Positions 32,467-34,869 of a DNA stretch of 42,236 bases are shown one piece after another. This DNA comes from a virus. The notes under the pieces are model-generated. The model searched no databases and was not told the origin of the DNA. It saw only the letters and a list, made by a program, of their open reading frames with translations. The DNA lies in IMG/VR virus record IMGVR_UViG_3300046513_000319, positions 1-42,236 of that record; one strand, given 5' to 3'. Every line of letters starts with the position of its first letter. Position 1 is the stretch's first letter. Position numbers and translations under genes: made by a program.

Positions 32467-32867
32467 AACCCGCCCGCCTCTCTCCGGCCGAAGCAGTCGC
32501 CATCGCGGCGGAGGAGCGCGACCGCCGCTGGAAGGCCTGGTCGGCTGCGGTTGGAGCGGCGGCAGAGGATCAGCGTGAAGCGCTTGTCGCCCGCGCGCTG
32601 CGCGACGAGCTGCTGTGGTTCGAAATTGAAATGTGGGCGCGCCGCCTCGCGAGCGATCCGGAAGGCCACGCCCATGGCTGGCCGCGTCACTTGCGCGAAG
32701 CTCTGAAGAGCGCCACCCTGACCGCCAACGTCGCGCGCCAACATGCTCTTGCTGGCAAGCTGCCGGAGGCCAAGGCCCTCGATCTAATCCACCTGTGCAA
32801 CTGGCTGGCCGTCACCCGACCGATCCCGTTCCGCGAGATCGTGGCGGAGCGGAGCGCTGCGGCGTGA
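32463..32867 (+). CDS. Helical protein of unknown function, 134 aa
   Basis: ATG 32463 overlaps the upstream stop (ATGA). The product is Ala/Glu/Arg-rich and helical (EAVAIAAEERDRRWKAWSAA, LRDELLWFEIEMWARRLAS, ALDLIHLCNWLAVTRPI) without membrane spans. Its own stop overlaps the GTG of the excisionase-like gene, so the four genes up to the integrase form a coupled operon. I do not recognise a family. Confidence 0.6.
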   Translation: MKPARLSPAEAVAIAAEERDRRWKAWSAAVGAAAEDQREALVARALRDELLWFEIEMWARRLASDPEGHAHGWPRHLREALKSATLTANVARQHALAGKLPEAKALDLIHLCNWLAVTRPIPFREIVAERSAAA

Positions 32868-33148
32868 TACAGCAGGATATCCGCCCGAGCCGCAGCCGCT
32901 GGCCTCGTCTCCTGAAGGAGCCCGACGCCTGCGAATATTTGTCGATCGGCAAATCGACGTTGCGTGACCATGGTCCGCAACCGAAGCACCTCGGCCGCGC
33001 CGTGCTGTACGACATTCGCGATCTGGATCGCTGGGCCGACCGCCTGGGCGACCAACCACTTGAACCCGATGAGCATTTGAAGGAAGCTGCCAGTGTCGAG
33101 GACGCCTATTTCAGGGGACGCGCCCAGCGTGGCAGAGATCGAGCTTGA
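32864..33148 (+). CDS. xis: Excisionase-like / AlpA-MerR-type HTH protein
   Basis: The protein has 94 residues from GTG 32864, which overlaps the upstream stop (GTGA). The segment LKEPDACEYLSIGKSTLRDH followed by LGRAVLYDIRDLDRWADRL is the AlpA/excisionase winged-HTH pattern (helix, turn, short wing with a YDIRDLDRW-type end). It immediately precedes and overlaps the integrase gene, as xis often does. The symbol is given on context plus fold; a role in controlling integrase is the alternative. Confidence 0.7.
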   Translation: MIQQDIRPSRSRWPRLLKEPDACEYLSIGKSTLRDHGPQPKHLGRAVLYDIRDLDRWADRLGDQPLEPDEHLKEAASVEDAYFRGRAQRGRDRA

Positions 33149-34157
33149 ATATACCTATCTGGCCAAGGGTAAGTATTGGCGCTTTCGCCGCAACGGCCGC
33201 GACACGAAGATCAACGGCATACCCGGCAGCAAGGAATTTTTCGATCACTACAACCAGTTGCTGGAGCAGGAAGAGGCGATCGCGGCCGATCGCACGCCGG
33301 CGCGATCGACGCTCAATTGGCTGATCAAAAAGTACGAGGGTAGCGCCGAGTATCGCGCACTCGCCGATTCGACCCAAACGGATTACAGCAAGACGCTCCG
33401 CACGCTCGAGGCCGAGTTGGGCGAGCAGCCCTTTCTCTACATCACCCGCAAGATGGTCAAGGCCGTCCGCGACGACTTCGCCGACACCGCCCGCAAGGCG
33501 CACAAAATCAAACAGATGGTCAGCCGCCTCTATAGCTGGGCCGACGAGAACGACCATGTGCCGGAGGGAACGAACCCGGCGGCGGCGATCAAGCGTTTGA
33601 AGCGCCAAGGAGGCGAACGGGAGATCGCCGTTTGGAGCGACGAAGAGATCGACCTGTTCTTAAAGCATTGTCCCGAACGTCTTAAGACACCCGTGCTGCT
33701 CGCGCTTTATACTGGACAGCGGAAAGAGGACGTCTTGACCATGTCGTGGACCCAAGTCCAGGGCGACATGATCCGCGTGCGCCAGTCGAAGACGGGGACG
33801 ATGCTGGACATCCCGTGCCATCCCGTCCTGAAGAAGCATCTGGCGGCCGAGCGCAAGCGGCGCGAGGGCGTCCAGATCTGCATCAGAAACCGGGCCACCA
33901 AGGACCGGCCCACCGAGCTTTGGAACGACAATACGTTCGGCGCCGCCCTCTACCGGGCGGTTCGGGCGACGCCGGACATGCCGCCGAATCGCTCGCTACA
34001 CGGCCTGCGCTACGCATCTGCGAGCCGCTTGGAAGAGTCGGGTTCAACGGTGGCGATGATCGAGGCGGTCTTGGGTCATCATACCTTCAAGATGGCCCTC
34101 AAATATGCGAGCCAGCGTCTTCGTGCGAAGGCCGCCATGGACAGGTTGAGGGCGTGA
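33093..34157 (+). CDS. int: Tyrosine integrase
   Basis: The protein has 354 residues from GTG 33093, with GGAAG six bases upstream; GTG 33129 is possible. An N-terminal arm-binding region (LEYTYLAKGKYWRFRRNG) precedes a SAM-like core-binding domain (STQTDYSKTLRTLEAELG). The catalytic domain has all tyrosine-recombinase residues: R210 in YTGQRKED, K233 in QSKTG, H303xxR306 in LHGLRYAS, H329 in LGHHT and the nucleophile Y338 in LKYASQ. It should insert the phage genome at a tRNA-Cys gene through the attP that starts a few dozen bases downstream, and excise it with the excisionase-like protein. Confidence 0.95.
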   Translation: MSRTPISGDAPSVAEIELEYTYLAKGKYWRFRRNGRDTKINGIPGSKEFFDHYNQLLEQEEAIAADRTPARSTLNWLIKKYEGSAEYRALADSTQTDYSKTLRTLEAELGEQPFLYITRKMVKAVRDDFADTARKAHKIKQMVSRLYSWADENDHVPEGTNPAAAIKRLKRQGGEREIAVWSDEEIDLFLKHCPERLKTPVLLALYTGQRKEDVLTMSWTQVQGDMIRVRQSKTGTMLDIPCHPVLKKHLAAERKRREGVQICIRNRATKDRPTELWNDNTFGAALYRAVRATPDMPPNRSLHGLRYASASRLEESGSTVAMIEAVLGHHTFKMALKYASQRLRAKAAMDRLRA

Positions 34158-34380
34158 TTTGGCTATCGCACTGCGAACTTTAGGGATTGCACTGCGAACT
34201 TTTCTCCCCTAGTCGCCGCAAACCCGCAGAAATGCTGTCGTTGGCCCGATGGCGGAGTGGTTACGCAGAGGACTGCAAATCCGCGACGAAGGACGGAATT
34301 TCTTCATAGTTCGCACATTTCACCGTTTGTTCACGCCACGCTTTTCTGCGGGTTTCAGGTGACATTGCGAACTTTTCCTT
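34158..34380. other. attP region with arm-type repeats and flanking inverted repeat
   Basis: Non-coding up to the gene at 34483. TGCGAACT occurs four times: two direct copies within GCACTGCGAACTTT at 34168-34181 and 34189-34202 (21 bp apart), one direct copy at 34366-34376 and one inverted copy at 34308-34315. A perfect 13-bp inverted repeat (AAACCCGCAGAAA, 34220-34232, and its complement, 34343-34355) is centred near 34288, next to the tRNA-derived core. The layout resembles integrase arm sites and accessory sites around a core. The stretch 34381-34482 is pyrimidine-rich with nothing else I can support. Confidence 0.75.
34243..34282 (+). other. attP core: 5' half of a tRNA-Cys (GCA) gene
   Basis: The 40 bases from GGCCCGA through GACTGCAAATCC fold as acceptor strand, D-arm (GCG...CGC), a GAGGA anticodon stem strand and a CTGCAAA anticodon loop with GCA. 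The match to a tRNA-Cys 5' half stops in the 3' side of the anticodon stem, after TCC; the following GCGACG no longer fits. No T-arm or 3' acceptor is present, so it is not a functional tRNA. It is the expected site of identity with the bacterial attB. Confidence 0.82.
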
Positions 34381-34482
34381 CGCTGCAGCGCGTCTAAATC
34401 CGTCGCTCAATGTGCTGAAGTGCGTTGGGGTTGGCGTAATTTCCCCTTCCCCTTTGTTCTTTTTCCGTTCTACCCATGGGGT

Positions 34483-34869
34483 ATGAGATTCTCGCAAGAC
34501 CGGCTGATCTTCAAAGCGCTGTGCGCGCTGGACGAAGTGGTGGAGCGCGCGCGGAAAGATCGGGTCGAGCCCGACTTCGCCATTCGCTTCGCCCTGGCCT
34601 ATCTCCACAGCGTCCGAATACGGGAGGATGATTGGTGCTATCGCGAGTTTCTGCAAACAATCAGTAGAACGCCATCGTTTGAGCAGCCGGGAGTCCCGAT
34701 GCGGGGAACGCTGGCATGCACGCAATTCCAGTGCATATGCCGATCGGTGGGGATCGAATATACCGTGGAATTCGAGGTTGCGATGCAGGATGCGCGAAAG
34801 TCCAAGCAATCGATCACGGCGGGCAGCGCGGCAGCTAGTCCGGCGGACAGCCGATCTCCGCGCCGTTAG
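34483..34869 (+). CDS. Plus-strand gene next to attP, 128 aa, unknown
   Basis: The start is ATG 34483 with a GGGG site; a longer reading from 34420 adds a Phe/Pro-rich stretch from the pyrimidine tract. The product (MRFSQDRLIFKALCALDEV, AIRFALAYLHSVRIREDDWC) is helical, with a short Ser/Ala tail. It overlaps the convergent Rz1 gene by 35 bases at the 3' end. After integration it would be the first gene inside the prophage beyond the host tRNA-Cys promoter. It is a candidate lysogenic-conversion gene of unknown family. Confidence 0.55.
   Translation: MRFSQDRLIFKALCALDEVVERARKDRVEPDFAIRFALAYLHSVRIREDDWCYREFLQTISRTPSFEQPGVPMRGTLACTQFQCICRSVGIEYTVEFEVAMQDARKSKQSITAGSAAASPADSRSPRR

Follow-up and report, generated by a model that had tools for sequence, protein, structure and literature searches.

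In reviews of bacterial elements that integrate at tRNA genes, the target is said to be expressed from its original promoter 'with very few exceptions'. A smaller number of elements carry the 5' part of the gene. Passages of the Islander report (Hudson, Lau and Williams 2015, PMC4383910) record 5' tDNA fragments in 159 of 3,919 islands and describe crossovers in the anticodon loop as common. To judge from its title and from the way PMC6563490 cites it, a paper of 2002 is an early report of the reversed layout. The archaeal element pTN3 (Cossu 2017, PMC5495485; reviewed in PMC8371274) has a 41-bp core within the 5' half of the tRNA gene, and the rebuilt tRNA is 'separated from its original promoter'; one thaumarchaeal element also carries the 5' part of a tRNA. 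The sequence-only reading of the DNA described here had held that the usual tRNA-targeting layout leaves the host promoter in place, in agreement with the reviews. The 5'-half layout is less novel than it implied; the layout is rare, yet has already been described in Islander and for pTN3.

The DNA analysed, referred to as the window, is the whole 42,236-nucleotide stretch of a viral record. We put at roughly 85% the probability that it contains the attP of a temperate phage that recombines in the anticodon loop of tRNA-Cys and brings with it the 5' half of the gene and, most likely, a captured promoter. In the proposed sequence of events, the integrase would recombine within the single-copy tRNA-Cys gene of a sphingomonad, leaving the host promoter on a broken 5' fragment at one end of the prophage. 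At the other end would stand the only intact tRNA-Cys, its 5' half from the phage and its 3' half from the host. This hybrid gene would be read from phage DNA, most likely from a captured host-derived promoter (TTGCAC at 34187, TAGTCG at 34210), to which read-through from the integrase gene may add. With the hybrid read from phage DNA, the cell would rely on the phage for an essential tRNA.

Anatomy of the attachment site

The core of the attP (34243..34282, + strand), GGCCCGATGGCGGAGTGGTTACGCAGAGGACTGCAAATCC, corresponds to nucleotides 1-40 of tRNA-Cys(GCA), an assignment made by direct reading and by identity to host genes: all 40 of its 40 positions match the 5' part of the gene in dozens of Sphingomonadaceae genomes (query 65-104, 100%). 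It comprises the 5' strand of the acceptor stem, the D arm, the 5' strand of the anticodon stem, the anticodon loop, and the first 3 nt of the 3' strand of that stem; 3 nt past the loop, the window diverges from tRNA-Cys. Neither ARAGORN nor Rfam detected a complete tRNA in the window, and the 3' half of tRNA-Cys is missing. The claim made from the letters, that the attP holds the 5' and not the 3' half of the gene, was thus correct to the base. The ends of the contig form an exact direct terminal repeat of 127 bp, which indicates that the attP is present here in its unintegrated form.

Upstream of the core lies a gene for a tyrosine integrase of 354 amino acids (33093..34157, + strand; PF00589, 4.8e-12). 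Its catalytic residues R210/K233/H303/R306/H329/Y338 are conserved and are invariant in the family alignment, and its profile matches lambda Int structures. The gene ends at 34157 and the core begins at 34243 on the same strand, 85 nt further on, so the core does lie downstream of int and in the same direction, as had been read. Upstream of int and overlapping it is a gene for a small helix-turn-helix protein (32864..33148, + strand), a possible excisionase, with a weak match to HTH_17 (5.8e-4) that falls below the Pfam cut-off.

Across all 42 kb of the window there are only four copies of the octamer TGCGAACT, and all of them flank the core, between 34172 and 34373, as predicted arm-type sites. 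On the left are P1 (34172..34181) and P2 (34193..34202), the latter within the spacer of the candidate promoter; both read TGCGAACTTT on the + strand, as does P'2 (34366..34375) on the right. The remaining copy, on the P' side, is inverted (34306..34315, - strand; ATAGTTCGCA on the + strand), and its AGTTCGCA motif is also found about 30 nt to the right of the core in other attPs. In addition, a 24-nt inverted repeat (83%) has its left arm over the captured tRNA leader (34212..34235, + strand) and its partner at 34340-34363, on the right side of the attP. Core and predicted arm repeats together are of lambda-type attP anatomy, which we regard as established at the level of sequence.

Integration at tRNA-Cys in relatives

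No lysogen of the window phage itself was found, and a DNA search of phage records returned no near relative; what was found were related integrases, mostly 49-62% identical, at 19 genome loci, nearly all in Sphingomonas, and in IMG/VR contigs. The tRNA-Cys gene is normally single-copy in sphingomonads, and each of the 15 genomes with a related integrase at tRNA-Cys has one intact copy. Displaced fragments were present in 14 of these 15 genomes and were always the 5' end of the gene (nt 1 to between 38 and 41), on the same strand as the intact gene and upstream of it; in the fifteenth (G009) no displaced fragment was seen, and the contig reaches just 2.5 kb beyond the intact gene on its upstream side. 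Where int sits at the far junction of a lysogen, orientation was assigned from the paired fragment and intact loci. The int gene is undisrupted in the lysogens of relatives. Fragment matches end exactly after CTGCAAA in five related elements (L020, L025, L028, L030, and L043), which puts the crossover no further right than the 3' edge of the anticodon loop; tyrosine integrases are usually expected to cross over on the loop itself (PMC8371274). In the window the loop occupies 34273..34279 (+ strand), and the same fragment ends make it the probable 7-nt crossover (overlap) region.

The search of sphingomonad genomes that the sequence-only reading had proposed thus located related integrases at tRNA-Cys in 15 genomes, 14 of them with the displaced 5' fragment of the reversed layout, and its prediction of an intact tRNA joined from phage 5' and host 3' halves was borne out in the relatives by the rebuilt gene at the junction and the displaced 5' fragment. 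An attB in some other, unrelated gene did not occur and is rejected, the target in the relatives being tRNA-Cys.

Comparison of lysogens with empty sites located the host promoter. The integrase of Sphingomonas sp. SRS2 (L015) groups with that of the window (support 98/97). When SRS2 was compared with an empty relative (G395), the two outer flanks matched, at 85% over 1398 bp upstream of the fragment and at 84% over 1365 bp downstream of the intact gene; the DNA that precedes the intact tRNA-Cys had no match. A second pair, lysogen G012 and empty G016, gave the same picture on the promoter side. In a comparison with 57 empty-site records, none of the 15 lysogens gave a match for the sequence upstream of its intact tRNA-Cys; of 13 sequences upstream of displaced fragments, 9 gave one. 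In the relatives, therefore, the broken fragment retains the host promoter and the start of the working tRNA-Cys lies in element DNA; among the 15, there was no prophage in which the intact tRNA keeps the host promoter. This displacement is demonstrated by sequence comparison in the relatives; that the leader is active as a promoter, and that a lysogen of the window phage would behave in this way, we infer from sequence.

Several further observations concern variation at this target. The first likely gene to the right of the core (34420-34869 in the window; also in L014, L015, L016, L020, L028, L030, and L043), known from ORF calls only, is usually co-directional with the tRNA half, so that in a lysogen the displaced host tRNA-Cys promoter would be upstream of it. 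The tRNA half faces the integrase, on the opposite strand, in L006, L010, L017, L018, L022, L029, and L040; L010 stands apart from the clade that unites the other six, which implies at least two changes of orientation with respect to int. In L018, L019, L021, L023, L043, and L146, phage halves that start with GGCGCGA are found with host 3' halves that end in TCGCGCC, and GGCCCGA with TCGGGCC, so that the acceptor strands of phage and host correspond; the need for the phage half to pair with the host acceptor stem is a possible limit on host range. A second, divergent integrase-like family also occurs beside 5' halves of tRNA-Cys (L209:2641-3966, L169:7987-9261, L181:133-1503, and L002:3105-4358). 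Its members are 64-98% identical to L209:2641-3966, have the C-terminal motif RHGGMTE...SKHKT..AYR.YAKE, and match nothing in Pfam or PHROGs; promoter-like boxes precede the tRNA half in L181 and L002. Its presence at these halves suggests independent use of the reversed layout. Two records labelled as Synechococcus phages (L002 and L003; OM868082 and PP438429) have a tRNA-Cys half and relatives of the integrase that are typical of alphaproteobacteria; the host named in them may be mistaken or may be a contaminant. Finally, one sphingomonad holds a classical 3' fragment of tRNA-Cys (nt 27-74; G157:C1:1633874-1633921), so that both layouts target the same gene within one family.

Source of tRNA-Cys transcription

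A strict sigma-70 scan of the window returned no promoter, and no terminator was found between int and the tRNA half. Given the empty promoter scan, we turned to a two-box model derived from the leaders of host tRNA-Cys genes (50 leaders; TTG[AC]C - 17 nt - [CT]A), and thus trained on the same gene family. In the window it identified a -35-like box, TTGCAC (34187..34192), and, at 17-nt spacing, a -10-like box, TAGTCG (34210..34215), both on the + strand and the latter 27 nt from the tRNA 5' end and also placed by homology to host leaders. The score of 10.1 was reached by 1.3% of random phage windows (P 0.013) and 3.5% of shuffled sequences (P 0.035), and by itself points only weakly to a promoter.

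Homology of the leader to host DNA adds to the score. Alignment of the window leader with host leaders gave scores of 54 (G149), 42 (G144), and 38 (G160), as compared to a maximum of 30 in 1000 shuffles, and a BLAST search of host sequences with leader and tRNA half together gave 104 bits, against about 73 for the tRNA alone. Such homology could outlast promoter activity. The tRNA-Cys gene behind the best-scoring leader, in G149, adjoins a 2.7-kb island, and the displaced host leader there likewise reads TTGCAC-17-TAG. This mini-island (L233:7549-10344) lies between a 5' fragment of tRNA-Cys and the intact gene, has no recognised integrase, and shows the same promoter type on both tRNA-Cys copies.

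Across the family, 16 of the 25 integrase clusters have a host-type promoter (score of at least 9) ahead of the tRNA half that the phage supplies, compared with about 3% of background windows, although the clusters share ancestry and do not amount to 25 independent trials. Both SRS2, whose boxes are TTGACG-17-TAGAGC, and L005 bear such a promoter and cluster with the window integrase (98/97). These comparisons lead us to conclude that most members of the family transcribe the tRNA mainly from a captured host-type promoter, as the window phage probably does too.

The alternative that survives best keeps the reversed layout but has the tRNA read through from the integrase operon, the promoter-like boxes being incidental. 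Its case is the proximity of int, 85 nt upstream on the same strand with an empty terminator scan between, together with nine same-strand clusters, including lysogens G012 and G010, in which the two-box model recognised no promoter. In these two lysogens (loci L057 and L062, respectively) the sole intact tRNA-Cys is cut off from the host promoter, with no recognisable host-type replacement. Against it, the leader of the window is homologous to host promoters, and SRS2, from the clade of the window, has boxes of its own. Where int lies on the strand opposite to the tRNA, read-through is impossible, and there the promoter is present in all six clusters, as opposed to 10 of 19 same-strand clusters, a difference that is only suggestive (Fisher P 0.057). 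We consider read-through with incidental boxes unlikely as an account of the window. The sequence-only reading had derived transcription of the tRNA from phage DNA, by int read-through or by an unseen promoter at 34158-34242. The phage origin agrees with the loss of the host promoter in relatives, and host-homologous, promoter-like boxes do fall within that interval; read-through is possible for the nine clusters in which no promoter was recognised.

An extension of the captured-promoter reading, somewhat more doubtful than read-through, is a reciprocal exchange of promoters. The arm repeat at 34193-34202 sits between the -35 and -10 boxes, an arrangement repeated in L010 and SRS2, and the integrase could there compete with RNA polymerase. 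Under such an exchange, the captured promoter on the sole tRNA-Cys would be shut off by integrase bound at the spacer arm site, and the displaced host promoter would read the first prophage gene; in this way the prophage would possess an essential host gene and draw on a growth-regulated host promoter.

Two other explanations are rejected. Lysogeny in which integration destroys the host gene and the phage compensates with a complete tRNA of its own, here a tRNA-Cys, is known in actinobacteriophages (PMC10865867), but is barely conceivable for this integrase family, whose relatives rebuild an intact gene at the junction, and the window holds no complete tRNA. That the fragment is a chance or degenerate remnant, as the absence of a predicted tRNA from the window might suggest, is scarcely credible given the 40/40 identity, the clustering of arm repeats only at the attP, and the same arrangement beside related integrases demonstrably integrated at tRNA-Cys.

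Comparison with described systems

In the literature covered, which does not take in two key papers of 2002, no direct precedent was found for a tRNA promoter carried in an attP. The 5' islands of Islander, in the passages that describe them, resemble the window in that the attP carries the 5' part of the gene and the displaced fragment is the 5' end. Islander is a catalogue, in those passages without discussion of the origin of the promoter, whereas the integrase family of the window was found, as far as searched, only in sphingomonads and related contigs. The pTN3-like elements likewise place the core within the 5' half of a tRNA gene, and restore the full tRNA away from its promoter. They are archaeal, their integrase gene is split on integration, and the integrase promoter is stated to drive their tRNA; here, in contrast, int remains intact and ends 85 nt before the core, and many attPs have a separate, host-type tRNA promoter. 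As in tRNA-dependent lysogeny (PMC10865867), the viability of the lysogen would rest on tRNA sequence and promoter of the phage, but in that system an entire phage tRNA makes up for the destroyed gene, whereas here a hybrid gene is rebuilt.

What appears to be new is a bacterial integrase family that combines the reversed layout with a candidate host-type tRNA promoter borne in the attP. Since siblings within it differ in promoter carriage and in the direction of int, the source of the promoter in 5'-half elements can be tested by sibling comparison. An entire family of bacterial integrases appears to shift an essential, single-copy tRNA onto phage DNA, which most tRNA-targeting elements do not.
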